Shown here: positions 15,001 to 32,059 of the stretch, one piece after another | How the letters are laid out: the number at the start of each line of letters is the position of its first letter | Numbering within the stretch: the stretch's first letter is position 1 | Origin: a virus | DNA length: 44,393 bases | IMG/VR virus record: IMGVR_UViG_3300023176_005896 | Coordinates: 1-44,393 of that record | Strand: one strand, 5' to 3' | Program-made: the position numbers and the translations under genes | Notes under the pieces: generated by a model | Database searches by the model: none | Told to the model about the DNA's origin: nothing | What the model saw: the letters and a program-made list of their open reading frames with translations, nothing else

Positions 15001-16041
15001 ATGACCAGAGCAAGAGTACTCGCAGGTTTCGTTACAACAATCAATGCCACCAACGACATGAACGTTGGTATTGTTACAGCAACCTCTGGTACTATCAGTG
15101 GGAACCTGAATGTTGCTGGTGTTCTGACTTATGAAGATGTAACTAACATTGACTCCATTGGTATTGTTACTGCAAGAAATAACCTTGATGTTCAGGGCAG
15201 CTCTACTTTTACAGGTGCTGCTCAGTTCAATGGTGGTATCAAGGATGCTGGTGGAAGTTTAGGTGTCAGTGGTTATGTTCTAAAGACTGATGGAGCAGAT
15301 ATTGATTGGGTAGATCCTACCACTGTCAATGGACTTCAGGGTGTTCAAGGTATTCAGGGTATCCAAGGCACTCAAGGAACTCAAGGAATTACTGGCACTC
15401 AAGGAACAACTGGAACCCAAGGAACCACTGGCACTCAAGGAACTCAGGGCATTCAGGGTATTCAAGGAACTCAAGGTATTCAAGGTACAACTGGTACTCA
15501 AGGAACAACAGGTACAACAGGTGGAACTGGAACCCAAGGAACCACAGGTACTCAGGGCATTCAAGGTATCCTTGGAACACAAGGAACCACTGGTGCAACT
15601 GGTTCTGCATCACTGACAAACAATGCAGACAACAGAGTCATCACTGGTGGTTCTGGAACCAACTTGAATGGAGAATCAAACCTCACATTCAATGGATCAC
15701 ACCTTGCACTGACAGGTAAGGCATCTGCCAACATCAGTTCTTTAGGCAACAAGAGTGCAAGTTTTGCAATTGACCTTGGGACAGCAAATAACTTCTCAAT
15801 GACACTGACTGGAAGTTTGACACTGAACAATCCTTCCAACATCACAGCAGGTCAGTCTGGTGTAATTTTCATCACTCAAGATGGAACGGGTGGAAGAACC
15901 GTCGCGTTCGGCTCGTACTGGTCGTTTGTTGATGGGACTGCGCCAACCATCACAGCAACCGCAAGTGCCAAGTCTGCACTTTACTACGTTTGTAGAACAA
16001 CCACGGACATCTTTGTTACTTCCACTCTCAACGTAAGTTAG
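15001..16041 (+). CDS. collagen-like tail fibre, 346 aa
   Basis: Three parts are visible. Residues 1-110 are fibre repeats (GIVTATSGTISGNLNVAGV and relatives) ending in DGADIDWVDPTTVN. Residues 111-203 are about 31 uninterrupted G-X-Y triplets, almost all GIQ, GTQ or GTT, the hallmark of a collagen-like triple helix. Residues about 250-346 are a beta cap (SASFAIDLGTANNF, GQSGVIFITQDGTGGRT) homologous to the 496-aa fibre cap. The triplets contain no proline, so helix stability would rest on Gln/Thr rather than hydroxyproline. Expected to be a trimeric fibre or linker at the tail. Confidence 0.85.
   Translation: MTRARVLAGFVTTINATNDMNVGIVTATSGTISGNLNVAGVLTYEDVTNIDSIGIVTARNNLDVQGSSTFTGAAQFNGGIKDAGGSLGVSGYVLKTDGADIDWVDPTTVNGLQGVQGIQGIQGTQGTQGITGTQGTTGTQGTTGTQGTQGIQGIQGTQGIQGTTGTQGTTGTTGGTGTQGTTGTQGIQGILGTQGTTGATGSASLTNNADNRVITGGSGTNLNGESNLTFNGSHLALTGKASANISSLGNKSASFAIDLGTANNFSMTLTGSLTLNNPSNITAGQSGVIFITQDGTGGRTVAFGSYWSFVDGTAPTITATASAKSALYYVCRTTTDIFVTSTLNVS
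15331..15609 (+). repeat. collagen-like G-X-Y coding repeat
   Basis: Imperfect 9-bp units such as GGAACTCAA and GGTATTCAA encode about 31 tandem Gly-X-Gln/Thr triplets. Near-identical units make length change by slippage or recombination likely. The repeat also creates long spurious open frames on both strands. Confidence 0.9.
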
Positions 16042-16082: not shown

Positions 16083-16931
16083 ATGGCAATTCAGATTTCG
16101 GGAACAACCGTTATTGATAATAGTAGGAACATTACCAACACGGTAAATGTTTCTGCCTCATCTTCGGTTACCGCTAACGAGTTTTATGGTGATGGTTCAA
16201 ACCTGACGGGTGTCTCTGGAGGAGGCGGGTCAGGTGACTTTAACACAGGAATTACAACAACGGTTGCTGTAACACCGATCGGAATTGGAACCACGGTTCT
16301 GACACTTCCAGCAACAGCAGGAGAGCAATATCTCGTTTCATCAATCTTTGTGACCAACGTTGCATCAGCAACCACTGAAATTAATGTCATTGGAGCATTT
16401 GACTTTGACACTGGTTATGGTGGAGGACAGGTCAGTTACTTCGCTTATAATATTCCAGTGCCACCAGGAACTGGAATCGAATTGTTGGAACAACCACAAG
16501 TTCTTGGACCAAGTGATAAAATTCTGTTGAGAAGCACAGATTACGACAGAAATGGTGTTGATGATGGTCTGAAAGGTTTTATCACTTATGATGCAGAGAC
16601 AAGCACAGATTACTTTGGTGTTGGAGTAAGCACAGTTGGACTTGGAACAACATCCGCAGTTGGTGTTTTCACTTCCACAACTTATCCAAGTGTCATTCAG
16701 TCAATTCGTTGTGTCAACAGAACTGATGATGGATCTTATCCAGTCACAGTAAGTCTTACCAATGGAATTGTAACCACGAATCTGGTTGAAGACTTGATCA
16801 TTCCGAAATACGGAAGTGTTGAGATTATGGATAAACAAAAGAGAATGGGAGTCAACGACATCATCAAAGTGGAGGTCGGGCAGCCAGAAACGATTGCCGT
16901 TCAGTGCTCTGGCAAACAAATTACTTCGTAG
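16083..16931 (+). CDS. virion/fibre-associated beta protein, 282 aa
   Basis: The start follows GTGGAAGCACGAAG. An N-terminal fibre-type segment (MAIQISGTTVIDNSRNI, then GDGSNLTGVSGGGGSG at about 40-55) leads into a single beta-rich domain (QYLVSSIFVTNVASATTEINV, PVPPGTGIELLEQP, LVEDLIIPKYGSVEIMDKQ, GVNDIIKVEV). The domain style resembles head or tail decoration folds used in cyanophage structural proteins. GDGSNLTGV matches the GDGSGLTNL motif in the giant fibre, so the two may share a trimerisation element. No enzymatic motif is visible. It is followed after nine bases by the first propeller gene. Confidence 0.65.
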   Translation: MAIQISGTTVIDNSRNITNTVNVSASSSVTANEFYGDGSNLTGVSGGGGSGDFNTGITTTVAVTPIGIGTTVLTLPATAGEQYLVSSIFVTNVASATTEINVIGAFDFDTGYGGGQVSYFAYNIPVPPGTGIELLEQPQVLGPSDKILLRSTDYDRNGVDDGLKGFITYDAETSTDYFGVGVSTVGLGTTSAVGVFTSTTYPSVIQSIRCVNRTDDGSYPVTVSLTNGIVTTNLVEDLIIPKYGSVEIMDKQKRMGVNDIIKVEVGQPETIAVQCSGKQITS

Positions 16932-16940: not shown

Positions 16941-19898
16941 ATGGCAGATACAAGAGGCGTTTTCGGGTTATCACGAGCCTATCAAAGAATTGCAAGAGGA
17001 TCTTGGGTTGATCCTCGAACAGCATTTGCAGCTAACTTTGCTACAACTCCAAATGCTGGTTATTTTGCTGGTGGAACAACTCCATCAGAAATAAGTAGTA
17101 TTGATAAGTGTAATTTTACTGATGATACAACAGCATTACTTCCCTCTGCAGATTTGACAGGTGTCAGATCGACACATGGATCTGTAAGTTCAAATAAAGC
17201 AGGATATTATATTGGTGGAAGAACTCCTCTGATTTCATCGTGCGACAAACTTCTTTATTCAATTGAAACTATTGCCAAAACTCCAGGTCTAAACTTAACC
17301 TCAGTTATTCAAGATGCTAGAGGATTTGGAAACGACACTCATGGATACTCCACTGGTGGATATAATGGAAGTAGTTATGTCAGTGTTGTTGATAAGATCA
17401 TCTTTGGTACTGACACCAGTTTCCGTTTTCCAAGTGCTAACCTGATCACTCAAAGAAACATTCATGGAGCACTTGCGACTCAAGATGCTGGTTACGTCAC
17501 GAATGGATATGATGGTAGTGGTTATGTTAACAGTGCTGAAAAGACTGTTTTTGCAACGGATACGACAACAGCAATTCCTTCCACCTTCCCTGGTTCAAGG
17601 GGTGGTGTAACTGGAGCTTCAACGGACACAATCGGTTATATAAGTGGTGGTGTCGAACCAGGACCAATATTTTACAGCACAGTCAATAAATTCACTTTTT
17701 CCACCGAAACTCCTGGTGCTGCTCCCACTCTTCCCTCAGCAAACTCACTGCCTGCTTCACTGCAGTATAATGGTGGAGCAGCTACTTCATCTCTTGCTTA
17801 TTTTGCAGGAGGAAAAGGTTCTGGAGCTGCCATCAACACGATGTGTACGATTAATGCAGCGGATGACACCAAAACAAATGTTCCTGGTGCGAACCTGACT
17901 GCCACAAGATACAATTATTCTGCTGTTACTCCAAAAGGTCAGTCAAGAACAATTCCATCATATTTTGATGATTTCTCACAACACAATCCAAGTCAAAAAC
18001 ACGGACCAGTACACGGATATTGTCAGAACGGATATCGCTCATCACCAGGTGGACATGACACTGGGGTTACCAGAATCCAATTTTCTAATGACTCAGCATC
18101 AAGAATCCCCAGTGCTGACATTACACTCTCAACTCCAGCAGCAAATGGAAAGACTCCATTCTCAAATAATCAATTTGGTTATTTTGTGGGTGGAATCGGA
18201 CCATTGAGTGATATCATCAAACTCAATTATGCCACAGAAACAAGTGCCAACATTCCAGCTAAGATGGCTCAACCACAATCTGTTGGCAGTGGAGCAGCTT
18301 CAGATAAAACAGGTTATGTGTTGGGTGGATCAAAACCTGGTGCATATACTAACAACTGCATAAGTGTTGATTTAGCGACAGACACGTCTGAATTGCTCAC
18401 AAATAACCTCTCAATCGCTGCTGGTTTCAAGGCTGGTGTTTCCGATTCAACTGCTGCTTATGCTTGTGGTGGCGTTACTCCAGGACCCACAATTTATTCT
18501 ACTGTTGATAAATTCACTTTCTCCACTGAAAGTTCTGTAAGAGTTCCTGGTGCAAACCTGAGTGTTCCCAGAACCCAACCAGGTTCTTTGGGTGATCAGA
18601 CTGCAGGATACATTGTTGCAGGAGATGGTCCAGGTCCCAACTATTCTTCCACAGACAAACTCACTTATGCAAGTGAGACAACTCAAAGACAGACAACAGC
18701 AAACAGAACACAAACAAATATTGCATATTTTACTGGAACAGGAAACCAAACCACAGGTTATTGTTTTGGTGGGAACATTGCACCAAGTACAACTGGTTTC
18801 TCGTCAATTGATAAAATGTCCTTTGCGAGTGACACTTTCTACAGAAACACTTCTGACATGTGTTTCCCTTATTTTTCAAACTCTGCGGCTTCTGGTCGTG
18901 AACAAAACAGAACAATATTCAGACCACAAGAAACTCCAACACTGAACCAGTCACTTTCAACTTCAGGGATTCCTAATTTTGGATACATGGCTGGAGGAAG
19001 TGGTCCTGGATCAACATCACCCCTCAGTTCAATTGGTAAGTATAATTTTGAAACAGATACTAGATTGCCATTCACTGGTCAACTCAGTATTGCCCGTTAC
19101 ATTGGTGCTTCTGGGTCAAGTAGCACTGCTGGATACATTGCTATGGGACTTAGTTATGTTGCACCCACTTATTACAGACACTCAAGAGTAGATAAATTAA
19201 CATTTGCAACAGAAAATGTAGCACCTGTTCCTGGTGCTAATACACCAGTTTCTCTTCAGAATTCCTGCGGAGCAAGTAGTTCACTTGCTGCATATTTCTC
19301 TGGTGGTGCTCCTGGTCCTGTCGCAACAACACAGAAGTTGACTTTCTCAGATGAAACCACTGCTACTGTTCCTGGTGCTGCTCTAAGTGGTAATCGTGAT
19401 TCACCAAGAGCTGGAGCAAGTTCTTCTGCAATGTATATGTGTGGAGGTGTAGTACCAGGCTCTGTACCACTCAGCACTGTGGACAAATTGATATTCTCCA
19501 CTGATACAACTTCAGTAACTCCAAGTGCTGCATTGAATGGAACTCGTTATGTTGGTGCCATGGCAGGAAATGCCACACAAGGATATTATGGTGGTGGACT
19601 TCGTTATACTGGTTCATATGTTGGATTATCTGACATCAATAAAATCAATTATTCAACAGACACTACTCAACTAATTGGAGCATCTTTAAGCAGAAGTAGT
19701 TGGAATATAGGAGCAACAGGAAATGCTACAAAAGCATATTTCGCTGGTGGTGTTCCTGGTTCTGTGTCAACAGTTGACAAATTAGATTATGTAACAGAGA
19801 CGACAACACTTGCAGAACCCTTGAGTGGAACACGTTACGGTATAATTGGAGTAAGTGGAAGAGTCAATGCAGGAGCATATACTTCCAACGTCTTATAA
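16941..19898 (+). CDS. kelch-like propeller repeat protein A, 985 aa
   Basis: The N-terminus (MADTRGVFGL, then SWVDPRTAF) is shared with the proteins at 22784 and 27241. From residue ~40 I count 18 repeats of 45-54 residues with the pattern GYxxGG, then STVDKxxFxTDT, then xxPSANL, then a Gly/Ser-rich turn. They fall into three sets of six (about 40-334, 363-655, 681-976) separated by spacers of 28 and 25 residues that lack the motif. Six GYxxGG repeats suit a kelch-like beta-propeller, so I predict three propellers in one chain, ending SNVL. Genomic position beside fibres suggests an adhesin or fibre tip. No sugar-oxidase active site is visible. Confidence 0.75.
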   Translation: MADTRGVFGLSRAYQRIARGSWVDPRTAFAANFATTPNAGYFAGGTTPSEISSIDKCNFTDDTTALLPSADLTGVRSTHGSVSSNKAGYYIGGRTPLISSCDKLLYSIETIAKTPGLNLTSVIQDARGFGNDTHGYSTGGYNGSSYVSVVDKIIFGTDTSFRFPSANLITQRNIHGALATQDAGYVTNGYDGSGYVNSAEKTVFATDTTTAIPSTFPGSRGGVTGASTDTIGYISGGVEPGPIFYSTVNKFTFSTETPGAAPTLPSANSLPASLQYNGGAATSSLAYFAGGKGSGAAINTMCTINAADDTKTNVPGANLTATRYNYSAVTPKGQSRTIPSYFDDFSQHNPSQKHGPVHGYCQNGYRSSPGGHDTGVTRIQFSNDSASRIPSADITLSTPAANGKTPFSNNQFGYFVGGIGPLSDIIKLNYATETSANIPAKMAQPQSVGSGAASDKTGYVLGGSKPGAYTNNCISVDLATDTSELLTNNLSIAAGFKAGVSDSTAAYACGGVTPGPTIYSTVDKFTFSTESSVRVPGANLSVPRTQPGSLGDQTAGYIVAGDGPGPNYSSTDKLTYASETTQRQTTANRTQTNIAYFTGTGNQTTGYCFGGNIAPSTTGFSSIDKMSFASDTFYRNTSDMCFPYFSNSAASGREQNRTIFRPQETPTLNQSLSTSGIPNFGYMAGGSGPGSTSPLSSIGKYNFETDTRLPFTGQLSIARYIGASGSSSTAGYIAMGLSYVAPTYYRHSRVDKLTFATENVAPVPGANTPVSLQNSCGASSSLAAYFSGGAPGPVATTQKLTFSDETTATVPGAALSGNRDSPRAGASSSAMYMCGGVVPGSVPLSTVDKLIFSTDTTSVTPSAALNGTRYVGAMAGNATQGYYGGGLRYTGSYVGLSDINKINYSTDTTQLIGASLSRSSWNIGATGNATKAYFAGGVPGSVSTVDKLDYVTETTTLAEPLSGTRYGIIGVSGRVNAGAYTSNVL

Positions 19899-19903
19899 GT
19901 AGG

Positions 19904-19921
19904 TTATAATAAACAAAAACA
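19904..19921 (+). promoter_or_regulatory. TATAAT-containing element after propeller A
   Basis: TTATAATAAACAAAAACA recurs with small changes after propeller genes B and C. It carries TATAAT 17 bases before the next ATG, which has no Shine-Dalgarno, so it may be a -10 element giving a very short leader. No good -35 is visible. Confidence 0.45.
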
Positions 19922-19927
19922 GATATT

Positions 19928-20575
19928 ATGGGTGTGATGATTGGTCTCCCTTGTGGGGGAGGCAATATTAGTGAGAAGACCACTGTTGGTTTGTTCAATC
20001 TTGCAAAGGCATTTGTAAGAAACAACATTCCACATGGACTTCTTACGCTTTCTAATTCTTCTCTGATTGGTCACGCTCGCTCCAGAGTTGCCAACTTCTT
20101 TATCAACAACACGGATTTTGAATATCTGTTCTTTCTGGACAGTGACATCGGTTTTGATGCTCAGGATGTGATAAAATTATTGTCGTATCAGGTGCACATT
20201 GTATCTGCTGCTTATCCGATGAAAGTCTTGCCACCAAGATATTGTGTAAATTTCTCTTATCCAGAAAAAAGATACAGAAACTTAATCAAAATTGATGGCA
20301 ACGGAATGGGATTTGTTCTCATTCATCGCAGAGTTTTTACGGATATCGCACAACGTTATCCTGGTCTAAAATACACACCATCGGATTACCACTCGGAGGA
20401 TCCTCACACTGAAGGTGAAATGAATAACTCTTATCATTACTTCGCTGAAATGAAAATTGGAGATGGTTTTCTCTCGGAGGATAAAGCATTCTTCCGCAGA
20501 GCAACAGATGTTGGTTATGACACATGGTTAGACCGAGAAATTAAATTGAATCACACTGGTTATCACATTTATTAA
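19928..20575 (+). CDS. GT-A fold glycosyltransferase, 215 aa
   Basis: The N-terminus (MGVMIGLPCGGG) and a LTLSNSSLIGHARSRVANFF segment resemble GT2-like phage glycosyltransferases that bind a nucleotide sugar. The metal-binding DxD is FFLDSDIGF at Asp71-Asp73. A SEDKAFFRRA motif (183-185) sits where the catalytic ED or xED lies in this superfamily, followed by LNHTGYHIY, with the conserved late His at 209. An inverting or retaining mode cannot be told. It lies directly after propeller A and is in the same frame as the next glycosyltransferase, separated only by TAA and one codon. The likely acceptor is a virion protein or phage/host glycan; the context favours a fibre protein. Confidence 0.8.
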   Translation: MGVMIGLPCGGGNISEKTTVGLFNLAKAFVRNNIPHGLLTLSNSSLIGHARSRVANFFINNTDFEYLFFLDSDIGFDAQDVIKLLSYQVHIVSAAYPMKVLPPRYCVNFSYPEKRYRNLIKIDGNGMGFVLIHRRVFTDIAQRYPGLKYTPSDYHSEDPHTEGEMNNSYHYFAEMKIGDGFLSEDKAFFRRATDVGYDTWLDREIKLNHTGYHIY

Positions 20576-20578
20576 ATC

Positions 20579-22375
20579 ATGGCAGAACCAATTACAGGCG
20601 GAACTGAAAAGTGTTATGTTCGTTTGGCAGAACATTATCAATTCCCACCCAACGTGTTTGTTTCTCATCTCCCAGAAGAGTTGAGAAAATCAGATCATCC
20701 TTATAAGATTCTGTGGGCACATCATGCTTTTGATCAACCACTGTTTCTGAACTTTGATCACAACTTGGTGAATCACATTGTTTCACCATCTGAGTGGAAC
20801 AAAGAAATGTTTGTGAAGTTTCACAATGTTCCAGCGGATAAGATTACTGTCATTCCTGTTGGCATTTATGACATCTTCACTCACTCCGCGAATAAAACAA
20901 AGACAATGATTTACACCTCCATCCCTTACAAAGGGTTGGCAGTGTTATCACAAATCATTCCTCGCATTCTTGAGAGACATCCTGACACTAAGTTTAAGAT
21001 CTTCTCATCAATGTCTCTTTATGGACCATTGAATGATCCTTACATTGAATTGTATGAGGAACTGAAACTCAATCCAAGTGTTGAGTATTCATCTGCTGTG
21101 ACTCAGGATGAACTGGTCAAGCATTATCAGGAGTCTGCTTTCTTTGTTCATCCAAACATTTGGGAGGAAACATTCTGCCAGGCAATGTGTGAGGCAATGA
21201 GGTGTGGTGCTTATCCAATCATTACTAACATTGGAGCACTTGCAGAAGTTGCTGGTCAGGATCATGCCAGTGTGGTTCCCATTGAGGGAAAGAACACAAC
21301 AAAGGGTTGGGAGGTCACAGAAAACTTTCTAAATAACTTCACTGAGACATGTTGTAAGGCACTTGACTTTTTTGACAAGGAACGACCTTATTATGATCAA
21401 GTCTCAAAAAACATCTCTGATTATATCGTTGAAAGATATAATTGGAAGACCATCGCACACTCTTGGAAAACTTTAATTCACAACATCACTGGAGATACTA
21501 TGACTACGGATAATTCCACTGCATTGACTTATACACCAATCAATGCTCAACAAGCGGTGAATGACGAGGAGTATCTTCGTCTTGCTTTTGATAATGTTCT
21601 TCGTTGGGATGAGAGTGACAGGGAGATGGCTCAGGGTCGAACCAACTTCCAACTTGAGAAGTTCATTGGTCTGAACACTCACAACATCTCTGTTTCCTTT
21701 GAGCACATCCTCAAAGAGCGTCGTGGGATGGCAACTGGTTACATGTACAAACTCATCGAGATGAAGGAAAAGGTTCGTGAGTTTGAATACAAGTGGAATG
21801 ATAAAGATAAGTCGAAACCCATCATGTGGGAGCAAGGTGGTCCTGGTGGTGGACACCAGAAACTCTGCTGGTATGATTTGGATGAATTGTCAATGACTCA
21901 CTATCTGAAGTCTTCTGAACTTGAGATTCGTGATCGTCTGCACCAGATGGAGCACCTGGATAAGATGCTTGATGCATTGATTGAGCGTAATGGTGGTAAG
22001 ATTCCTGACAGAGAACAGTTCCTGGCAGAGAATGAGAACTATTGGGATACTCGCCTTGCTGAGCAGGCACTGGATGACCTGATGGCAGCACAAACTGGTA
22101 TCAGTGGTGGTAACCTCCAGGCAATGCGTCGTGCTTCTGGTCCTTCCATTGTTGATGGTCAGAATGAACTGAAGGAAGGTTATCTGCCAATGGATAAACT
22201 TCTCACTCAAGAAGGACGACTGGAGTTCATTCAAGACCTGCAATCCAAAGTTCTCAAAGGTTATGAGAAGATCTCTGGTAAGGACATGGGTCAAGGAACA
22301 CTGAAGGCAGCAGAAGAGCAGAAGCAACTGGGTCAAAGTTACTTCAATGCTGGTCAAGGTTTCAAGGAAGAATGA
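20579..22375 (+). CDS. GT-B glycosyltransferase fused to a helical domain, 598 aa
   Basis: Residues 1 to about 305 are a GT4-like GT-B enzyme: GGTEKCYVRLAEHY at the N-terminus, VIPVGIY, and the EX7E signature (Glu197 to Glu205 in EETFCQAMCE). The usual first beta strand before GGTE is missing, so the fold may be short or the start lies upstream. From about 308 the protein changes to a long helical, charged region (MTTDNSTALTYTPINAQQ, then coiled-coil-like segments to the end) with no enzyme motif. The junction has an internal ATG at 21500 with GGAG five bases before it, so the helical part may also be made alone (291 aa). The end overlaps the next gene by ATGA. Confidence 0.75.
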   Translation: MAEPITGGTEKCYVRLAEHYQFPPNVFVSHLPEELRKSDHPYKILWAHHAFDQPLFLNFDHNLVNHIVSPSEWNKEMFVKFHNVPADKITVIPVGIYDIFTHSANKTKTMIYTSIPYKGLAVLSQIIPRILERHPDTKFKIFSSMSLYGPLNDPYIELYEELKLNPSVEYSSAVTQDELVKHYQESAFFVHPNIWEETFCQAMCEAMRCGAYPIITNIGALAEVAGQDHASVVPIEGKNTTKGWEVTENFLNNFTETCCKALDFFDKERPYYDQVSKNISDYIVERYNWKTIAHSWKTLIHNITGDTMTTDNSTALTYTPINAQQAVNDEEYLRLAFDNVLRWDESDREMAQGRTNFQLEKFIGLNTHNISVSFEHILKERRGMATGYMYKLIEMKEKVREFEYKWNDKDKSKPIMWEQGGPGGGHQKLCWYDLDELSMTHYLKSSELEIRDRLHQMEHLDKMLDALIERNGGKIPDREQFLAENENYWDTRLAEQALDDLMAAQTGISGGNLQAMRRASGPSIVDGQNELKEGYLPMDKLLTQEGRLEFIQDLQSKVLKGYEKISGKDMGQGTLKAAEEQKQLGQSYFNAGQGFKEE

Positions 22376-22791
22376 GCGAACAGGTCATTGTAGTTGATGA
22401 CTTTTATGATATTCCTTTTCCATATCATAAAAGTTTCCTTGATAATGAGTGTCGGATTACAGAAGAGACTGGTGGTAAGATTTCACAGTTGCTGAGACAT
22501 CCAATTCAGATTGTTTCGGCAACCAATGAAGTCAATGGGACTGATGAGATTGTATCATTTCCAAACCACCAGTGGATTGCTGTCATTTATTTGACACTTC
22601 CTTTGTGTGGTTGGGGTGAACATGGACTCAAGTTCTTCACCCCAGAAGGAAAACAATATGGTAACATCACAGCAAAATACAACAGGATGGTGTTGTTTAG
22701 AGGAAATCTCCCTCATTCTTATGGTAAAGGTTATGGGGATAATCTAAATAACAGTATGCTTTTCCAGAGAATCGTTGTAAAAGATGGCTAA
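22372..22791 (+). CDS. degenerate 2OG-Fe(II) oxygenase homologue, 139 aa
   Basis: The N-terminus (VIVVDDFYDIP) and the C-terminal block (KYNRMVLFRGNLPHSYG, FGD-like YGDNLNN, FQRIV) align by eye with the 206-aa oxygenase at 25797. The distal His115 is kept. The HxD iron motif, expected just before AVIYLTLP, is replaced (VSFPNHQW), and the protein is about 65 residues shorter. I therefore predict loss of iron-dependent catalysis, with a possible binding or pseudoenzyme role. It overlaps propeller B by eight bases and the fused glycosyltransferase by four. Confidence 0.6.
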   Translation: MSEQVIVVDDFYDIPFPYHKSFLDNECRITEETGGKISQLLRHPIQIVSATNEVNGTDEIVSFPNHQWIAVIYLTLPLCGWGEHGLKFFTPEGKQYGNITAKYNRMVLFRGNLPHSYGKGYGDNLNNSMLFQRIVVKDG

Positions 22792-25777
22792 TACCCGTGG
22801 TGTTTTCAGTTTACAAGATATCCGTTTCGCCCAAGAGGACGGTGACTGGGTAGATCCTGGTGCATCTTTTGTTAAGAACTTTCCGTTCTCGGGAACTCCC
22901 AATGTTGGGTACTTTGCTGGTGGATCAACTCCGTCAGATGTAAGTAGTCTTGACAAGATGACTTTTACTGATGATACAACGGTTCTCGTTCCCAGTGCAA
23001 ATCTAACTGCCACAAACCGTACGTTGTGTGGATTTGGTAATCGATTTAATGCTTATTGGTCTGGTGGAAGATATGGTGGTCCAGCAGCTTTTTACTCTGG
23101 TGTAGAAAAACTTTCTTATCAAACAGACACCCTTACAAAAGCACCTGCATCTAATCTTCCTACAGGAACATCGGATGCGGCTGGAACTGCAATTGATGAA
23201 TATGGTTATATTTGCGCGGGCAGCACCCCGAGTAATGTCACCACTGTAAACAAATTGGTGTTTACACATGACACAGTAACACAAAGTCCATCTTCCGCTC
23301 TGAACACGGCAAGAAATGGACATGCTGCGATTGGAAATCAAACTGCTTGTTATATCTGTGGTGGAGAAACACCAATTACCAGTAATGTTGAGAAAGTAAC
23401 CTTTGCGACGGACACAAGAGAGGCAGTTAGTGCCAATGTCGCACAACTAAGAGCTGTTTATGGTGCTTCAGGTGATGCTGCTGGTTACATTGGTGGTGGT
23501 AATGATGGTGGTCCAGTCTCGACTCGACACAAGTCTACTGTTGTTAAATTTACTTTCTCAGGAGAGACAACAAGCACTCTCCCTTCAGCTAATTCTCTGA
23601 GAAACGTTGGGTCAAACATGCAAGGTGCTGGAAATTCAACTCACGGTTACTTTGGTGGTGGCAATGGACCTGCGAGTAACTTTAGTAACTTTACTAAGAT
23701 TCAATTCTCTGATGACACTGCATCGAACGTCCCCACTGGCGGCAATCTGACTGCCACGAGATATAATGGGGCTGCTGCTTGTCCAAGAGGTAAAGCATTT
23801 ACGCACTCAGGTTATATTGCGAGAGAACAAAACCTGAAGTTTGAGCAGTTTGATGAGGCTGCTTACTACATGGGAGGTTATGGTAACCTCTCACACACCA
23901 GCAGGATGGACTTCACCACGGATACTCTGGGAAGAAATCCTGGTGCTTCGCTTTACATAGGAAGAGCAGCTTGTCAGGGCATGGCAAGCTCCAAAGCAGT
24001 CTATGCAGCAATGGGGTCTGGAGCATCTGATTACAGTAGCATTGATAAACTTACTGTAGCAGATCAGACGACTGCAAGAGTTCCTGCTAACATGAACAAC
24101 GCTCAATATGACGCAGCAATCTGTACATCAGAGAATGCTGGTTATTCTGCTGGTGGTCTTCCTGGTCCAAAGTCCTCTGTTGATAAGTTCTCATTTGGTT
24201 CTGACACGGCTACTCTTCTTCCAGGAACTACTTTTGTAACTCCAGCTAAGTATCACCTGGGTTCTGTCAGTACCATGAAGTCACATGGTTATTATGCAGG
24301 AGGTATTACTCCTTCAGCAAACAGTGCTGTTGATCGAATTGATTATGCAACAGAAACAGTGGGTCGCGTTCAAAACCTTCCAGCAAATAGAGCATACATT
24401 GCTGGAATGTCTGGACCAGAATTTGGTTATTTCTCCTTGGGTTCTCCAGGTCCACTGACAAATGCTGTCAAAATTCAGTTCTCAACTGATACAGTTTCTG
24501 ACAGCATCACTGCAATTTCTTACACACCTTACCTTAACACCTATAACGTTGATCAGGCAGGAAACTCATCAACTCATGGTTACGCAGTTGGTGGATGGCA
24601 GTATAATTCCATATGTCAAAAACTAAATTACGCAACTGAACAGTATTCACTTGTTCACACAGCTAACATTGATTATGCAGGCGCTGGAGTTCCAAGTGGA
24701 ACCAATAACGCAGCATTTACTGGAACAATGGAGAACCACCGCAGTCTTCATGTTCCTAAGACCACAACTTATAACAGTTTCCTTCCCTCTGCATATTCAA
24801 GTGCACCTGATTTTGCTTTGATGAATGGAGGTGGAGCTCCAAGTGCTTCATCTTCAACAGACAAACTTACATTCTCCACAGAAACAGGATCGAGCAGTCC
24901 AGCTCGAAACACTCTTGCGAGAAGCAATTATCTTGCTGGTTTTAGTAACACAACTTATGGTTGGACTTGTGGTGGATACACTGGACCACCAGCGTACACT
25001 GCTTATTCGACCACGGACAGAGTTACTTATTCGACCGAGACGATGGTCAATGTTCCATCATCAAACATGCCTGGGACTGGTCGTTATGGTGGTGGTTATA
25101 GTTCGTCACCATCTGCTGGTTATTATGTTGCTGGTTATATTGGGAGTCAGCAATCAAGCACTCTCAAATTGCCCTTCACTCCTGGAACTTGGTCAACTCT
25201 TCCATCATCAGGCAATCTTAGCAGTGGTCGATATTATTTCCAAGGTGGTGGTGGAAAAGATAAGGGTTATTTCGGCGGTGGATCAGATTCAGGTGTTCCT
25301 GGTGTTGTCACAAAATATGATAAACTCACATATTCCACCGATACAATGCAAATTTGCAGCACTCTAAACACATCTGATCTACGACAGGTTGGTCAGATGG
25401 CTGGAATGTCTAAGGGATGTTATATTGGAACGGGACAAAACCCTGGTTCTCCAAATCCTGTTCCCCTCTCTGGTTACTTTATGGACTTTGCAACTGACAC
25501 TTCTAGGAGTATTGCTGGAGTGGTCACTTTAGGTAGGGCCTCTACACAATATGCTGCAACTGAACGTGAGGCATATTGGGTTGCTGGAATCAGTCCAGCT
25601 GGTCTTTATGGTTCTCCAGCATACAGTTCCATATCATCAACTGATAAATTCTCTTATGCAACGGAGACTGCGGAGAAACTTCCATCTGCAGATGCTCCTC
25701 AGTACAGAGCAGGTGCCTCAAGTATGAATCCTCGTGAAAATGGTGTCGTTCAACCACTCGAATCAAACGTCCTGTAA
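22784..25777 (+). CDS. kelch-like propeller repeat protein B, 997 aa
   Basis: A paralogue of propeller A: MANTRGVFSL, then DWVDPGASF, then 18 GYxxGG/DKxxFxTDT/PSANL repeats from residue ~42, again in three sets of six with motif-free spacers (ending near AFTHSGYIAREQN and AFTGTMENHRS), and a SNVL end. Sequence identity to A looks limited outside repeat consensus positions, so the copies are old or evolve fast. It starts inside the 3' end of the degenerate oxygenase gene. Predicted function is surface recognition, with repeat loops giving variation. Confidence 0.75.
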   Translation: MANTRGVFSLQDIRFAQEDGDWVDPGASFVKNFPFSGTPNVGYFAGGSTPSDVSSLDKMTFTDDTTVLVPSANLTATNRTLCGFGNRFNAYWSGGRYGGPAAFYSGVEKLSYQTDTLTKAPASNLPTGTSDAAGTAIDEYGYICAGSTPSNVTTVNKLVFTHDTVTQSPSSALNTARNGHAAIGNQTACYICGGETPITSNVEKVTFATDTREAVSANVAQLRAVYGASGDAAGYIGGGNDGGPVSTRHKSTVVKFTFSGETTSTLPSANSLRNVGSNMQGAGNSTHGYFGGGNGPASNFSNFTKIQFSDDTASNVPTGGNLTATRYNGAAACPRGKAFTHSGYIAREQNLKFEQFDEAAYYMGGYGNLSHTSRMDFTTDTLGRNPGASLYIGRAACQGMASSKAVYAAMGSGASDYSSIDKLTVADQTTARVPANMNNAQYDAAICTSENAGYSAGGLPGPKSSVDKFSFGSDTATLLPGTTFVTPAKYHLGSVSTMKSHGYYAGGITPSANSAVDRIDYATETVGRVQNLPANRAYIAGMSGPEFGYFSLGSPGPLTNAVKIQFSTDTVSDSITAISYTPYLNTYNVDQAGNSSTHGYAVGGWQYNSICQKLNYATEQYSLVHTANIDYAGAGVPSGTNNAAFTGTMENHRSLHVPKTTTYNSFLPSAYSSAPDFALMNGGGAPSASSSTDKLTFSTETGSSSPARNTLARSNYLAGFSNTTYGWTCGGYTGPPAYTAYSTTDRVTYSTETMVNVPSSNMPGTGRYGGGYSSSPSAGYYVAGYIGSQQSSTLKLPFTPGTWSTLPSSGNLSSGRYYFQGGGGKDKGYFGGGSDSGVPGVVTKYDKLTYSTDTMQICSTLNTSDLRQVGQMAGMSKGCYIGTGQNPGSPNPVPLSGYFMDFATDTSRSIAGVVTLGRASTQYAATEREAYWVAGISPAGLYGSPAYSSISSTDKFSYATETAEKLPSADAPQYRAGASSMNPRENGVVQPLESNVL

Positions 25778-25778
25778 G

Positions 25779-25797
25779 TTATAATAAACAGAAAACA
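25779..25797 (+). promoter_or_regulatory. TATAAT-containing element after propeller B
   Basis: TTATAATAAACAGAAAACA begins one base after the stop and runs into the ATG of the oxygenase gene. It is the second member of the family described at 19904. TATAAT ends 11 bases before the start codon, so transcripts from it would be nearly leaderless. Confidence 0.45.
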
Positions 25798-26417
25798 TGA
25801 AGAGAAGTATTATTATTGTGGATGATTTTCATCCCAATCCCGATGAAGTTCGTCATACAGCACTCACAGCAGATTATCCACAACCAGAGGATAGTTACAC
25901 ATATCCTGGTAGAAACTCACGTCAGAACTATTATCCACCTGAACTTCATCAGGCATTTGAAACTCTTCTGAACAGGAAACTCACTCCTGCTCCAAACAAT
26001 GGATATTTCAGAATTTCATTGGAAAATGACAGTTTCAAACAGGATGTTCATGTTGACCCCAACTGGGAGTTTGGTGCTGTTTGTTATTTGAATCCACCCG
26101 AACAATGTGTCGATGAGGGTGGCACATCATTCTGGAAACACAATAAAACTGGAATGGAATCTTGTGCCAGAACACCAGAGATTTCAAAACTGTGGGGATA
26201 TTCACAAGAAAAAGAAGCCTGGTGGACAACAGTTTATGGAGAGGGATTGGATAGATCAAAGTGGACCAGATACTTGCTGTCACCCATGAAGTATAATCGA
26301 ATGGTGGTCTTCAGGTCTGATCTGTGGCACTCACACAATTATAATTTTGGTGATCGTTTTGAGAATGGAAGACTGGTTCAATTGTTCTTCTTCAACCCAA
26401 CCGAATGGTTTGATTGA
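25797..26417 (+). CDS. 2OG-Fe(II) oxygenase-like protein (DUF6445-type), 206 aa
   Basis: The start region (MKRSIIIVDDFHPNPDEVR) and the core match small phage oxygenases. Iron ligands are visible as His85-x-Asp87 (QDVHVDPNWEFGAVCYL) and a distal His in LWHSH (178 or 180). Arg192 (GRLVQLFFF) is placed to bind the 2-oxoglutarate carboxylate. EGGTSFWKH is a typical double-stranded beta-helix segment. Members use Fe(II), O2 and 2-oxoglutarate to hydroxylate a substrate. The neighbouring propellers and the sulfotransferase, which overlaps by one base, make a fibre protein or its glycan the likely target. The substrate is unknown. Confidence 0.75.
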   Translation: MKRSIIIVDDFHPNPDEVRHTALTADYPQPEDSYTYPGRNSRQNYYPPELHQAFETLLNRKLTPAPNNGYFRISLENDSFKQDVHVDPNWEFGAVCYLNPPEQCVDEGGTSFWKHNKTGMESCARTPEISKLWGYSQEKEAWWTTVYGEGLDRSKWTRYLLSPMKYNRMVVFRSDLWHSHNYNFGDRFENGRLVQLFFFNPTEWFD

Positions 26418-27238
26418 TGAGTAAAACATATCATTTTATGGCAGGTCTTCCAAGAGCAGGAAGCACCTTATTGAAAAGCATACTCAACCAGAACCCAAAC
26501 ATTCACACAGAACCTGTCAGTCCTATTCTGGAACTGATGTATTACACTGATCAGTATTTCTTGACCAGTGAACAGTATCTTGCTTACCCAAAACCTAAGT
26601 CTGCTCACAAATTAATCTCTAATGTTATTGACAATTATTACTTTGACACTGAAGAACCTGTGGTCATTGACCATTGCAGAGCATGGGTAAATAATATTGA
26701 AAGAATTAAGACATACATTACACCAAACCCAAAGATTATCTGTCCTGTCAGAGATGTTGCGGATATTCTCACATCTTTTATTACCCTGATTCATCACAAT
26801 GGTGACGAAGTTTCATTCATTGACCAACATCTAAAAGAACATAACTGTCACATTGACGATGACAATCGTTGTAGATTTCTTATGGGTCCAGATGGTATCG
26901 TTCATCAAGCATTGTGGGCACAATCACAGGCATTTCGTCGTGGGGATCATAAGAAACACATGTTGTTTGTGGAATATGAGGATTTGATGTCCTCACCACA
27001 ACAAACAATGGACAGAATTTATGAGTTTCTTGAGATGGATTCGTTCCAGCATGATTTTGATCGAATTGACAACCCAGTTCGAGAGTCAGATCATCAATGG
27101 AATCTCAACAACATGCACCATGTGAGAAGAAAGTTAGAGAAGAAATCAAGAAAACCTGAAGAAGTATTGAGTGGGGAGATTCTAAATAACTACAAGAATC
27201 TTGAATACTGGAAGTATTCTAACCATAGGTATTTCTAA
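26417..27238 (+). CDS. PAPS-dependent sulfotransferase-like protein, 273 aa
   Basis: I choose the ATG at 26417, which overlaps the preceding stop by one base, over the in-frame TTG at 26414. Residues 9-18 (AGLPRAGSTL) match the 5'-phosphosulfate-binding loop of sulfotransferases. PVRDVADILTSF has Arg112 and Ser120 at the spacing of the 3'-phosphate motif (RxxxxxxxS). The family moves sulfate from PAPS to sugars, tyrosine or small molecules; PAPS would come from the host. Placed between two propeller genes and beside an oxygenase, it probably decorates a virion glycan or protein. It could instead modify a host lipid or lipopolysaccharide. Confidence 0.8.
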   Translation: MSKTYHFMAGLPRAGSTLLKSILNQNPNIHTEPVSPILELMYYTDQYFLTSEQYLAYPKPKSAHKLISNVIDNYYFDTEEPVVIDHCRAWVNNIERIKTYITPNPKIICPVRDVADILTSFITLIHHNGDEVSFIDQHLKEHNCHIDDDNRCRFLMGPDGIVHQALWAQSQAFRRGDHKKHMLFVEYEDLMSSPQQTMDRIYEFLEMDSFQHDFDRIDNPVRESDHQWNLNNMHHVRRKLEKKSRKPEEVLSGEILNNYKNLEYWKYSNHRYF

Positions 27239-27240
27239 AG

Positions 27241-30153
27241 ATGGCAGAGTCACGAGGCGTTTTTACTCTTAAGACAGTAAGAAATAATTTTCTCAATGGA
27301 ACTTATATAGATCCCGATGAGTCTTTTATTGACCAGGAGTTTTCGCACAACACTGGATATCACATTGCTGGATCAAACCCTGCGGGGAATGCTTATTCTC
27401 ACGTTCAGAAGTTGGATTATGCAACAGAAACTTCTACTGTTCTTGCCTCTAAAATAGACGACAATCCTGGTTCCACGGCTGCTGTAGGAAATGGAGAAGC
27501 TGCTTATCAGGCTGGTGGTTATGGTTACACCGCACCAGCAGGAGTTAGATCAACGGTTAACAAAGTAACTTATGCAACGGATGTTGTCGCAAGAATTCCT
27601 GCTCTATTGGGTCCCCAACGTTTTGGTATGGGTTCAGTAGGAAACATTGGTTTTGGTTTTTTCTGTGGTGGTTATAACACTGGAAACTTAGCCACGAGTG
27701 ACAAACTTACCTTTGCCACAGACTTAATCGCTGGTATTCCTGGTGCAAATATCAGTCCTGCAAGAAGAGTGCTCACAGGCGCAAGTAATCAAGAATATGG
27801 ATTTCTTTTTGGTGGATATGATAGTAATTATTCTGCATCTGTTGATAAAATTCAATTTACCACAGAAACCAGATCTTCTGCTCCCAGCTTGGGAACGGCA
27901 ACAGCAGATCCCTCAGCAGTAGGAAATTCCACAAAAGCTTATATTACTGGAGGCAACACTCCAGGGGGGATTACGGCTCAAACTTACGAATTGACCTTCT
28001 CTACAGGCACAACGTCAACGGCACCTGGATCAAATCTTCCAACTGCTAAAAACAGCATGACTGCATGTGGAACTGAGGAAAATGCTTTCTTCATGGGTGG
28101 ACCAGGTTCTACTCCTGTATCTGATATTGTAAAAATTAATTATACAACTGGAACTGTAACAACGATTTCTGGAGGTTTAGCAGATCCAGCATCAGGCGCT
28201 GGTGGAGCGAGTTCTCAGCAGTCAGGTCAACTGAATGGAGCAAAGAAGAGAAACATTAAAGGTAAACAGGGTGAACCTCGTGGAACATACCTGAATGGAT
28301 TTGCTGCAACTGAAGGTTACGGAACTGGATACTTTGTTGGTGGTCCACCAGCTGGATACACCGTGATGGATAGAATTAATTATGCAACCGATACGACAGT
28401 TGCTGTTCCTTCAGCTTACACAAAAAGAAACAAGTCGGCTCCAGGAAAGGGGAGCACACCAGAACATGCAAATTGGATTGGATCTACATCGGACACAACA
28501 GTTGAAAGAACATCTTATTCTGCTGATTGTACTTTTGAAGTTCCTTCAGCTGCCATTCCTCAAGCATCTGGTTATGGTGCTGGGCTTCAAAACAGCACAG
28601 CAGGTTATATGTGCGGTGGTCAGGGTCCAGGAGGTCCATATCTTTCATCAGTTCAAAAACTAACCTGGGCAACTGACACTGGATCTCAAGCACCCACGCG
28701 GTTGACGAAGACCAGGGGCATCCCTGCAGGAATGGGCAACAAGAACATTGGGTTTCTCTCGGGATCCACCAGTCCTGACAGTTCAGTCGATCGACTTGTT
28801 TATGCAACCGAAACTGTTAATCTCTCTCCGTTTGCCTTTGATCCAGTACCTCGTGCTTATGTGGGTGGAATGTCTAATGCCACTGATGGTGTCGTGCAAG
28901 GGGGAGGATCACCACGAACAAGTCAGTGTAGGAGATTGAATTTTGCTACTGAATCATTCGAACTCATTCCTTCCTCTCAGGCATTGATATCAATCCCCGC
29001 AGGAGGCCAGGCAAACGGTGCAACTGGAAACACACAAAATGGTTACAGTATGGGTGGATATAATGGTTCGTCATACACAACTAACTGTGACAAGATCAAT
29101 TACGCAACATTGACAAATTTCCGTGTTCCATCTGGCAACATGAGCACTCCTCGTCGTTATGTCACTGGATGTAGCAGTCAGGATCAAGATCTCCCAACAA
29201 AACCACTGGCAACGATTACACGAAATCGTTCAATGATTTCAAATGTACCTAATACTGGATATCTTGGTGGTAATGCCAGCCCATCAAGAGAAAAGGTTTA
29301 TAGGATTGACTTTACAACAGACACACTAACAACAACCACAGATTTAACAGAAGCTAGAGGTTATGGTGGTGGAAACTCAAGTAAAACTGCTGCTTACTTT
29401 GGTGGAGGAGCACTCTCTGGTCCTATCAATAAAGCAACAATGGATAAGTTACTGTATGCGGATGACACAGTAACGGCAGTTCCTGGTGCAGCATTGAGTC
29501 AAGCAAGATATCTCTTTGGTGGTCAAGTTGCTGGTGATTCAACAAAGGCACTCTGGGCAGGGGGGTACACAACTCCCGCTGCCCCACGAAACACAATAGA
29601 TAAACTTGTGTTCTCAACCGATTCAACAGGAGTGATTCCTGCAACACTTTCTGCTGCAAAGTACGGAATTACTGCTTGTGCAAGTCCTACTGCTGGTTAT
29701 GTTGCTGGTGGTTCAACTGGTGGTGGAAACAGAAGAACTGACATTGATAAAATCAACATGACAGATGAAACAGTGGCAAGAACACCATCTGCAGATTTGC
29801 CAGGACCTCGCACATATGCTATGGGAATGAGTAATCCTGGTGCAGGTTATTTCGTAGGTGGTTCGACTCCATCCGCGACCAGTGAAGTGATGAAACTAAT
29901 CTACAGTACGGATACACTTTTTAGAATATCAAATTATCCTGTTAATATCTTTGGAGGATTCGGCACAGGAAATAGATCGGCAGGACACTTCACTGGCGGT
30001 AACACTCCATCTTATACAACTGCTACTCAGAGGCTAGATTATTCCACAGAAACTTACTCACAAACAGCAGCGTCCCTTCCATCAGGAACGGGTTATGGTG
30101 CCTCTGCCAGCGCACAAAGTCAAGGTGGAAGGTATGATTCCAACGTCATCTAA
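27241..30153 (+). CDS. kelch-like propeller repeat protein C, 970 aa
   Basis: The third paralogue: MAESRGVFTL, then TYIDPDESF, then 18 repeats from residue ~39, in three sets of six with spacers near GAKKRNIKGKQGEPRG (basic) and PTKPLATITRNRS, ending SNVI. Several repeats deviate (NWIGSTSD, GVVQGGGSP) but keep length and the DKxxYATET core. It starts two bases after the sulfotransferase stop and is followed by the prolyl-hydroxylase-like gene. Function as for A and B is inferred from context: a large multi-propeller surface protein. Confidence 0.75.
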   Translation: MAESRGVFTLKTVRNNFLNGTYIDPDESFIDQEFSHNTGYHIAGSNPAGNAYSHVQKLDYATETSTVLASKIDDNPGSTAAVGNGEAAYQAGGYGYTAPAGVRSTVNKVTYATDVVARIPALLGPQRFGMGSVGNIGFGFFCGGYNTGNLATSDKLTFATDLIAGIPGANISPARRVLTGASNQEYGFLFGGYDSNYSASVDKIQFTTETRSSAPSLGTATADPSAVGNSTKAYITGGNTPGGITAQTYELTFSTGTTSTAPGSNLPTAKNSMTACGTEENAFFMGGPGSTPVSDIVKINYTTGTVTTISGGLADPASGAGGASSQQSGQLNGAKKRNIKGKQGEPRGTYLNGFAATEGYGTGYFVGGPPAGYTVMDRINYATDTTVAVPSAYTKRNKSAPGKGSTPEHANWIGSTSDTTVERTSYSADCTFEVPSAAIPQASGYGAGLQNSTAGYMCGGQGPGGPYLSSVQKLTWATDTGSQAPTRLTKTRGIPAGMGNKNIGFLSGSTSPDSSVDRLVYATETVNLSPFAFDPVPRAYVGGMSNATDGVVQGGGSPRTSQCRRLNFATESFELIPSSQALISIPAGGQANGATGNTQNGYSMGGYNGSSYTTNCDKINYATLTNFRVPSGNMSTPRRYVTGCSSQDQDLPTKPLATITRNRSMISNVPNTGYLGGNASPSREKVYRIDFTTDTLTTTTDLTEARGYGGGNSSKTAAYFGGGALSGPINKATMDKLLYADDTVTAVPGAALSQARYLFGGQVAGDSTKALWAGGYTTPAAPRNTIDKLVFSTDSTGVIPATLSAAKYGITACASPTAGYVAGGSTGGGNRRTDIDKINMTDETVARTPSADLPGPRTYAMGMSNPGAGYFVGGSTPSATSEVMKLIYSTDTLFRISNYPVNIFGGFGTGNRSAGHFTGGNTPSYTTATQRLDYSTETYSQTAASLPSGTGYGASASAQSQGGRYDSNVI

Positions 30154-30154
30154 A

Positions 30155-30173
30155 TTATAATAAAGAAAAACAC
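30155..30173 (+). promoter_or_regulatory. TATAAT-containing element after propeller C
   Basis: TTATAATAAAGAAAAACAC is the third copy of the element seen at 19904 and 25779. TATAAT lies 15 bases before the ATG of the hydroxylase-like gene, which has no Shine-Dalgarno. Confidence 0.45.
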
Positions 30174-30176
30174 ATT

Positions 30177-30845
30177 ATGACCATTGAAAATCCTTTGTCT
30201 CACATCCTCATTCGGAGAAATGTGATTAGTGAACTTGGTTTGAGAGAGATCAAAGATCACATGGATGCTTCTTCGAAGCACGACTTATCCGTCTTTGATC
30301 CTGATAAATCTAATGAAACTGGTGAAACTCACTGGAGAGTGGATAAGAAAGTCAGAGACACTCAGATTGTGGATCTGGGTCCACTCTTTCCTAAGATTGA
30401 AGATTTGATGAAGAACGTCGTTAAAGAGGTCATCAATCCATTTTATGAGGTTCAGGTTCATCAGAGTGAGGTTCCACAACTTCTCTCTTATAGTCCTGGT
30501 GGTCACTATCAACCACACATTGATGGTGAATCATTGTGGAGAACACCAGATGATCAACTGATTTGGAAGAAATCAGTGGACAGAGATTTATCCTTTGTTC
30601 TCTTCATCAACGATGGTTATGAAGGTGGTGACTTTGTGTTCCCTGATTTGGGTGTGAGAGTGAGACCAGAAGCAGGAATGTTAGTTGCTTTCCCATCTAA
30701 TCATCATTACAAGCATGGTGTAGAACCTGTAACCAAGGGAATCAGATACTCAATGGTCTGTTGGGCAGAGGTTCAAGGATGGCCAACGATGGCAGAAATC
30801 AATAAAGATCTTTCCCAAAAGTATGGGATTGACATAAATAACTAA
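30177..30845 (+). CDS. prolyl 4-hydroxylase-like 2OG-Fe(II) oxygenase, 222 aa
   Basis: All cofactor residues of the P4H-type fold are visible: HYQPHIDGE with His114-x-Asp116, distal His180 (YKHGVEPVTKG) and Arg190 (IRYSMVCW). DLSFVLFINDGYEGGDFVFP is the strand pair typical of the family. The length is normal for phage and bacterial members. The expected chemistry is hydroxylation of proline or another side chain using 2-oxoglutarate. The best context substrates are the propeller proteins, whose repeats keep a proline in the (V/I)P(S/G)A(N/D)L motif. The collagen-like fibre lacks proline in its triplets. The stop region carries a late promoter motif for the next gene. Confidence 0.85.
   Translation: MTIENPLSHILIRRNVISELGLREIKDHMDASSKHDLSVFDPDKSNETGETHWRVDKKVRDTQIVDLGPLFPKIEDLMKNVVKEVINPFYEVQVHQSEVPQLLSYSPGGHYQPHIDGESLWRTPDDQLIWKKSVDRDLSFVLFINDGYEGGDFVFPDLGVRVRPEAGMLVAFPSNHHYKHGVEPVTKGIRYSMVCWAEVQGWPTMAEINKDLSQKYGIDINN
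30833..30840 (+). promoter_or_regulatory. T4-type late promoter motif CATAAATA
   Basis: CATAAATAACTAAAAAACAGG overlaps the end of the hydroxylase-like gene and lies 20 bases before the ATG at 30861. The extended tail is the same as at 14421 and 16043. Confidence 0.55.
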
Positions 30846-30860: not shown

Positions 30861-31253
30861 ATGTATCTAAAACATTACTACGTTTGCGATCAAACGGGTG
30901 CCGCAGTATGCACCTCATCTGAACCCAGATATAAGAGACATCCTTGGAAGGAAGTTGCTGGACTGGATGTAAAGTGCTGGTTGTCAGACTCAGATGGTGT
31001 TGACGCAATGCTGGCTGTTGCTGAAGATGGTGCTACCACAGATGTAACGGATGACGCTTCTGGTAAGAAAGCAAGACAAGTCCTGACTGAAGCAGAATTC
31101 AATTCTGTCTGGACTCCTTACTCGGAAGCAGAAACTCTTTATTCTGAAGCCATGACAGCAGAAGAAGGTGGAGACACTGACACCGCTGCCACCAAGAGAA
31201 CAGCAGCAGATACTAAGAGAGCAGAGGCACTGACTGCCTTTAGAGCACTCTAA
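30861..31253 (+). CDS. hypothetical protein, 130 aa
   Basis: The product begins MYLKHYYVCDQTGAAVC and holds a compact N-terminal part with three cysteines, then an Ala/Thr/Glu-rich helical C-terminus (EAMTAEEGGDTDTAATKRT, ADTKRAEALTAFRAL). I do not recognise the family. It is the last gene before the terminator at 31280 and has its own late promoter motif, so it probably belongs to the late, virion-related set. Confidence 0.65.
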   Translation: MYLKHYYVCDQTGAAVCTSSEPRYKRHPWKEVAGLDVKCWLSDSDGVDAMLAVAEDGATTDVTDDASGKKARQVLTEAEFNSVWTPYSEAETLYSEAMTAEEGGDTDTAATKRTAADTKRAEALTAFRAL

Positions 31254-31438: not shown

Positions 31439-31780
31439 ATGTCTTGTCTCAACTATCAGAAAGTTTGGGAAGTGATGAGTGAACTGGAAGACAAGTTCAA
31501 CAACATCACCACCATCACAGGACTTGTTAAATTCATTGATGAGGCAGTGGAGAAGAACAATCAGGATGAGATTCGTTCAGGTGTAGATGCACTGAAGTCT
31601 TATATGAAAGTGTTTATCTCTGAGTACGACACTGCATCTAAGAGAGCATGGAACAACACTGTAGTTGCTCTCAAACAACACCCACATGAATCAGATTATA
31701 GTTATGAAATCAAAAAGCCAACTTACGAAGAAGTTGAAGAGTTCTTCACCAACGTGGATGAAGGAGTGGGTGTTGTATAG
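31439..31780 (+). CDS. hypothetical early protein, 113 aa
   Basis: First gene after the sigma70-type promoter, with AAGGAG nine bases before the ATG. The product (MSCLNYQKVWEVMSELEDKF, later TYEEVEEFFTNVDEGVGVV) is acidic and helical throughout, with no membrane segment. I do not recognise it. Small acidic early proteins of T4-like phages often bind host transcription or metabolic proteins, but nothing here shows that specifically. Confidence 0.7.
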   Translation: MSCLNYQKVWEVMSELEDKFNNITTITGLVKFIDEAVEKNNQDEIRSGVDALKSYMKVFISEYDTASKRAWNNTVVALKQHPHESDYSYEIKKPTYEEVEEFFTNVDEGVGVV

Positions 31781-31910
31781 AGAACAGATTATCTGTCAGA
31801 ACTGCAACAAGATTGATAAAAGAGACAATACAAACCAAGATGAGTATTGTCTCGATTGTTACAAAGCACTTTATCCAACTGGTTGGTTTGGTTGTTGGGA
31901 GGGAGATTGA
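31758..31910 (+). CDS. small zinc-ribbon-like protein, 50 aa
   Basis: Two CxxC pairs (Cys13/Cys16 in ICQNCNK and Cys31/Cys34 in YCLDCYK) separated by 14 residues form a likely zinc ribbon. The start is uncertain: the ATG at 31758 has no Shine-Dalgarno, whereas GTG 31770 or TTG 31773 follow AAGGAG at 31761-31766. It overlaps the preceding gene in a different frame. Short zinc ribbons often bind nucleic acid or protein; the function here is unknown. Confidence 0.6.
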   Translation: MKEWVLYREQIICQNCNKIDKRDNTNQDEYCLDCYKALYPTGWFGCWEGD

Positions 31911-32059
31911 TGATTACTACTATTATGGCAGGATTTGCCTTTGGTTATTGTGTGATAGACATTATCCAAAACTATCGTGCTCGTCTTAATGAGTATGAAC
32001 TACTCAAATCTACTATTGAGAAAGATAATTATGATCCTAGAATGGATGAGTGTCGATGA
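31910..32059 (+). CDS. small single-helix membrane protein, 49 aa
   Basis: The ATG overlaps the previous stop by one base and has GGGAG seven bases upstream. MITTIMAGFAFGYCVIDII is a membrane-spanning helix, followed by a charged tail (RARLNEYELLKSTIEKDNYD). It could associate with the host inner or thylakoid membrane. No family recognised. Confidence 0.6.
   Translation: MITTIMAGFAFGYCVIDIIQNYRARLNEYELLKSTIEKDNYDPRMDECR

Follow-up and report, generated by a model that had tools for sequence, protein, structure and literature searches.

We analysed a stretch of DNA of 44,393 nucleotides from a virus of marine cyanobacteria (the window; IMG/VR record IMGVR_UViG_3300023176_005896) in which positions 16941-30845 hold nine genes, all on the plus strand and in the order prop1, gtA, gt4, dox, prop2, ox1, sulf, prop3, ox2, that interleave three large kelch-type propeller proteins (prop1-3) with predicted glycosyltransferases, oxygenases and a sulfotransferase. 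Our results suggest that the phage probably uses these enzymes of its own to decorate, post-translationally, the propeller adhesins of its virion, as the original prediction had proposed. This is the best explanation because the enzymes' close homologues go together with propeller genes while distant ones do not, and because two more propeller families share overlapping enzymes. Scores of aquatic viruses show this partnership again, with at least two and probably three unrelated propeller types, a recurrence that suggests that these phages chemically decorate the proteins with which they probably grip host cells.

Linkage between enzymes and propellers

Viral contigs were scanned with ox1, sulf, gt4 and ox2, and the loci collapse to 118 clusters, 85 of which contain kelch genes, with the order of the cassette reshuffled among them. 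Because members of the system served as seeds in these surveys, the percentages describe its close relatives and not all phages. Kelch genes are present at 59 of 60 gt4 loci, the exception being a 4.5-kb contig, and at 38 of the 44 loci whose ox2 is at least 55% identical. In the other six, ox2 lies at most 300 bases from the contig end and lacks upstream sequence; close homologues with upstream sequence have kelch genes in 38 cases out of 38. Distant ox2 homologues (at most 33% identity) had kelch genes at none of 18 loci. Starting from the kelch side, with a query from the cultured Synechococcus phage S-SKS1 (host WH7803), ox2 was found in 17 of 17 clusters of at least 10 kb. The helical C-terminal domain of gt4 (gt4C), a separate gene in many phages that is fused in the window to the glycosyltransferase domain (gt4N), is accompanied by kelch genes in all 68 clusters that have it; it occurs in three of 50,697 phage records, each time with kelch genes, and none was found in genome contigs. 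The association between enzymes and propellers is far beyond chance. A co-occurrence survey had been set by the original prediction as its own refutation test, and its outcome, this contrast between close homologues tied to propellers and distant ones that are not, favours the prediction.

The linked genes are unequally conserved: across clusters, the median identity to the window genes is 52-58% for the enzymes and ~27% for the propellers. The marine virus AG-345-L05 has the same genes in permuted blocks (propA-ox1-sulf-propB-gtA-gt4-dox-propC-ox2), the enzymes being 59-69% identical to those of the window (45% for dox) and the propellers 25-33% in local alignments. After ox2 it carries a second sulfotransferase, a GT9-like gene and a carbamoyltransferase. 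In its propC (L010, 28257-31007) a LamG-like insertion, as read from the sequence, appears to replace the middle propeller. Carbamoyltransferase, GT9-like and extra gtA or gt4N genes also stand beside the cassettes of L050, L261, L262, L331 and L343, and suggest further sugar or cap chemistry. S-SKS1 itself encodes propellers, a separate gt4C gene, a sulfotransferase and ox2; in its record (L009, 68-6887) ox2 and several kelch open reading frames (ORFs) are split into pieces that overlap or adjoin, which are either pseudogenes or sequencing errors in repeats.

The partnership is found again on other folds. Contigs that have sulf and ox1 and lack kelch genes encode seven-bladed RCC1 propellers, glycosyltransferases also being among the enzymes that accompany them. 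The cultured freshwater Synechococcus phage S-SRM01 has three RCC1 proteins, a 2OG-FeII_Oxy_5 oxygenase (ox5) and a sulfotransferase, at a locus (L285, 1561-10786) that also holds a TPR-containing protein; the main text of its genome paper makes no mention of a sulfotransferase or an oxygenase. AG-345-E08 combines three RCC1 proteins with relatives of ox2, ox5, ox1 and sulf. A scan from the RCC1 side, for which the S-SRM01 and L059 proteins were the queries, returned 48 clusters, with a sulfotransferase in 36, a 2-oxoglutarate (2OG) oxygenase of these families in 26 and either in 40; exactly seven repeats were counted in 112 of the 130 RCC1 ORFs. One case concerns FG-GAP repeats: the kelch cassette of L031 includes two FG-GAP-repeat proteins bearing the N-terminal tag of the kelch propellers (E 1e-4 and 0.012), a short sequence like M..RGVF.L that a pattern match recovers in 139 of 191 propeller ORFs. 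This tag was also sought in the RCC1 proteins of AG-345-E08, where it was not significant. From these cases we tentatively suggest, as a possibility that we favour less than decoration in the window itself, that adhesin decoration is general in aquatic tailed phages, modules of hydroxylases, glycosyltransferases and sulfotransferases having been assembled separately around kelch, RCC1 and FG-GAP propellers, with gt4C as a presenter and dox as an adaptor in the kelch version; the outcome would be receptor-binding proteins that carry hydroxyl, sugar and sulfate groups.

The cassette and its proteins

The left end of the window carries T4-like tail genes, and the cassette adjoins genes for tail fibres. 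Its spacing is operon-like, with intergenic gaps of -8 to +29 nt. Another assembly from this population, 99.8% identical, leaves every one of its frames intact as well, and the differences between the two are too few to be informative. Most of them fall beyond the cassette, in 31439-34211, which hints at recombination or rapid change there. The genes named by the original prediction were all recovered at the stated coordinates on the plus strand, and are listed here with two neighbouring genes; the family calls GT4, DUF6445, sulfotransferase and 2OG-FeII_Oxy_3 were made above curated Pfam cut-offs.

16941-19898, plus strand: prop1, kelch propeller of 985 aa with 18 blades; N-terminal tag MADTRGVFGL
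19928-20575, plus strand: gtA, putative GT-A-type glycosyltransferase; phrog_1574; DSD motif in the sequence
20579-21496, plus strand: gt4N, glycosyltransferase domain (GT4 family) of gt4, a fused gene; PF00534, 1e-14
21497-22375, plus strand: gt4C, helical C-terminal domain of gt4; GGAG precedes an internal ATG at 21500
22372-22791, plus strand: dox, DUF6445-type pseudo-oxygenase; HxD and 2OG arginine lost, distal histidine kept
22784-25777, plus strand: prop2, kelch propeller paralogue of 997 aa; 17 detected blades
25797-26417, plus strand: ox1, DUF6445 2OG-Fe(II) oxygenase; PF20043, 6.6e-16; HxD...H...R intact
26414-27238, plus strand: sulf, sulfotransferase; PF13469, 1.3e-18; intact P-loop of the 3'-phosphoadenosine-5'-phosphosulfate (PAPS) type
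27241-30153, plus strand: prop3, kelch propeller paralogue of 970 aa; 18 blades
30177-30845, plus strand: ox2, prolyl-4-hydroxylase (P4H)/PKHD-like 2OG-Fe(II) oxygenase; PF13640, 1.8e-15; HxD...H...R intact
16083-16931, plus strand: o16083, conserved gene that in many of 41 clusters stands directly 5' of the cassette
30861-31253, plus strand: o30861, small conserved gene, often immediately 3' of ox2

That the three proteins of ~970-1000 aa are kelch paralogues is borne out by profile searches and predicted fold. Their repeats of ~48 aa carry a GG motif, and the profile search matches KLHL12 and SAKe (designed kelch propellers). Blades were counted with an iterated repeat profile in the window and in 191 propeller ORFs from distinct clusters, where 12 blades are the commonest number (87 ORFs), with 18 in 27, 6 in 13, 24 in 12, 30 in 9 and 36 in 4. 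Since most counts are multiples of six, the unit is most likely a six-bladed propeller, present in up to six copies per protein, and we read each of the window proteins as three such propellers. An AlphaFold2 model of prop1 matches single kelch domains (KLHL3, TMt ~0.85), its overall arrangement being unreliable at a mean predicted local distance difference test score (pLDDT) of 69 and a predicted TM-score (pTM) of 0.38. Eukaryotic kelch proteins, such as KEAP1 and the KLHL family, share the six-bladed fold, but they are single propellers, while the phage proteins have one to six and are encoded in tail operons. We also considered whether a D/E switch in column 26 of the blades marks the presence of ox1, and rejected this, since the switch tracks lineage and even the window blades are mixed.

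Among the oxygenases, ox1 keeps the HxD...H metal triad and the 2OG-binding Arg/Lys in every core member, and ox2 keeps them in both the window and AG-345-L05. The closest relatives of ox2 in the PDB are the PKHD hydroxylase PiuC and P4H, and by sequence it appears to be a P4H-like enzyme. In dox, the HxD pair and the 2OG-binding arginine are lost. The original prediction rightly saw an intact oxygenase with a degenerate relative, but the idea of a local relic, or decaying gene, does not hold: nearly all of the ~26 orthologues that cover the region, each from a different phage cluster, lack the same residues while keeping the distal histidine and its surroundings, and we regard dox, from this pattern, as a conserved pseudoenzyme.

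The sulfotransferase and the P4H-like oxygenase were correctly predicted, both with Pfam matches above cut-off and intact catalytic residues. The PRAGSTLL motif of the PAPS-binding P-loop is conserved in sulf, whose closest solved relatives are protein-tyrosine sulfotransferases (TPST), a similarity limited to ~48 residues of the cofactor region. Of the two glycosyltransferases announced, gt4N stands as a GT-B enzyme of family GT4 (PF00534 and PF13692 above the cut-off); gtA had no Pfam or NCBIfam match and stays a putative GT-A-type enzyme, matching phrog_1574, of unknown function, and, weakly, the glycosyltransferase family phrog_34859. All 32 fused gt4 genes have an in-frame ATG at the junction, where separate gt4C genes begin, and a Shine-Dalgarno-like sequence accompanies 15 of these 32 codons, compared with 42 of the 434 Met codons elsewhere, which makes it probable that gt4C is produced as a separate protein too. 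Its AlphaFold2 model (pLDDT 80) resembles the helix-hairpin-helix of prefoldin, though not significantly: at Z 6.8 and 2.9 Å over 101 residues, the match is too low to be told from common helical arrangements, and the likeness of gt4C to a prefoldin-like chaperone is a weak one.

Taken together, this T4-like cyanophage probably carries here, as one self-contained cassette, adhesins and the enzymes that decorate them. The multi-propeller proteins would be tail-associated host-recognition proteins, docked through their conserved N-terminal tag and modified late in infection by the enzymes transcribed with them. In this sequence of steps, ox2 and ox1 would hydroxylate propeller side chains, gtA and gt4N would attach sugar to a hydroxyl, and sulf would transfer sulfate to the sugar or to tyrosine, with gt4C and dox probably binding the propellers and presenting them to the enzymes. 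Such modifications may change how the phage binds its host or, as the original prediction also proposed, mask the virion.

Alternative explanations

Several points weigh against propeller decoration. The location of the propellers in the virion is something that we infer; they match phrog_19111, a family with no annotated function, and the substrates of the enzymes cannot be read from sequence. Some kelch cassettes lack sulf, ox1 or gtA. Bacillus, Brevibacillus and Clostridioides phages, as well as BUCT-ZZ01, have RCC1 proteins near which we recognised no sulf or 2OG oxygenase genes. This implies that a propeller can do without decoration, propellers being common in tail regions and the enzymes an added layer. 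In contigs L163 to L167, glycosyltransferase, GT9-like, sulfotransferase and DUF6445 genes lie beside collagen-like fibres with no propeller, these fibres being a possible fourth type of substrate. Finally, the proline of the blade motif, on which the original prediction had built its hydroxylation sites, is indeed well conserved locally (74% of the 53 window blades, the sixth most conserved column; 62% family-wide), but kelch repeats in general retain proline in this loop, and its frequency ranges from 17% to 100% of blades among phages where ox2 is nearly constant. We therefore rejected it as evidence of hydroxylation: it is non-specific and fits ordinary kelch architecture.

Four other explanations each account for less than propeller decoration does. 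The enzymes could remodel surface glycans of the host, for instance to block superinfection or to change the receptor. GT4 and sulfotransferase families frequently target surface polysaccharides, NoeE and EpsE are weak NCBIfam matches for the cassette enzymes, and carbamoyltransferase and GT9-like genes accompany some clusters. However, the operon sits inside tail genes, its enzymes depend on propeller genes, the P4H-like and DUF6445 oxygenases have no obvious role in polysaccharide remodelling, and we recognised no flippase or polymerase gene in the cassette, all of which makes this explanation unlikely.

We regard as marginally less likely still that the enzymes modify other fibres of the virion, the propellers being mere neighbours. 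Just upstream, positions 15001-16041 encode a collagen-like fibre of G-x-Q/T triplets, with no proline in the triplets shown, which is a possible alternative substrate; o16083, a frequent neighbour of the cassette whose homologue in AG-345-L05 is the C-terminus of a 2491-aa protein, is a probable tail-fibre component; and the propeller-less contigs mentioned above join overlapping enzymes to collagen-like fibres. But as a constant substrate the collagen-like fibre is unsupported: such ORFs occur in 11 of the 41 clusters with o16083 (several of these loci having little upstream sequence), and the 37.8 kb of AG-345-L05, with its complete cassette, contain none. Besides, the enzyme genes are interleaved with the propeller genes and travel with them.

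We give very little weight to the oxygenases being auxiliary metabolic genes that alter 2OG/NtcA signalling in the host and that landed here incidentally: this follows a published proposal for cyanophage 2OG oxygenases generally (PMC3037559), but it leaves sulf, the glycosyltransferases, dox, gt4C and the constant pairing of close ox2 with kelch genes unexplained. Just as improbable is that accessory genes came together by chance in a hypervariable part of the tail genes, which suits the modular, reshuffled character of the region but not the same gene set in ~85 clusters, the conservation of enzymes over propellers or the recurrence with RCC1.

Relation to known systems

Mycobacteriophages have glycosylated virion proteins, and we know of no oxygenase, sulfotransferase or propeller adhesin in those cases. 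The likeness lies in phage-encoded glycosyltransferases proposed to act on virion proteins, as has been suggested for Maravista (PMC11256854). The collagen lysyl hydroxylase/glucosyltransferase of mimivirus (PMC9546862) offers another parallel, a virus-encoded hydroxylase and glycosyltransferase for a repeat protein of structural type, but there the substrate is collagen, the chemistry is that of lysine, the virus infects amoebae and neither sulfotransferase nor propellers take part, while in the present system the activities are predicted. Virus-encoded modification of structural proteins is already known; in the open-access literature searched we did not find it combined with propellers and a sulfotransferase, nor any paper that links sulfotransferases to the tail fibres of cyanophages or other phages.

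Cyanophages hold many 2OG oxygenases without known substrates, so far explained as metabolic genes; 2OG-Fe(II) oxygenases are common in cyanomyoviruses and received that explanation there (Sullivan 2010, PMC3037559). Ours belong to the same superfamily, but to the ox2 and ox1 subfamilies, which are tied to propeller genes. If these subfamilies decorate virion adhesins, the question of their substrates becomes testable in cultured phages, S-SKS1 having the version with kelch, sulf, ox2 and gt4C and S-SRM01 that with RCC1, sulf and ox5, in records that annotate these genes as hypothetical or as single enzymes. Should decoration prove true, receptor-binding proteins would not be understandable from their sequence, or from protein expressed in bacteria, alone, and hydroxylation and sulfation could join the known chemistry of phage particles.

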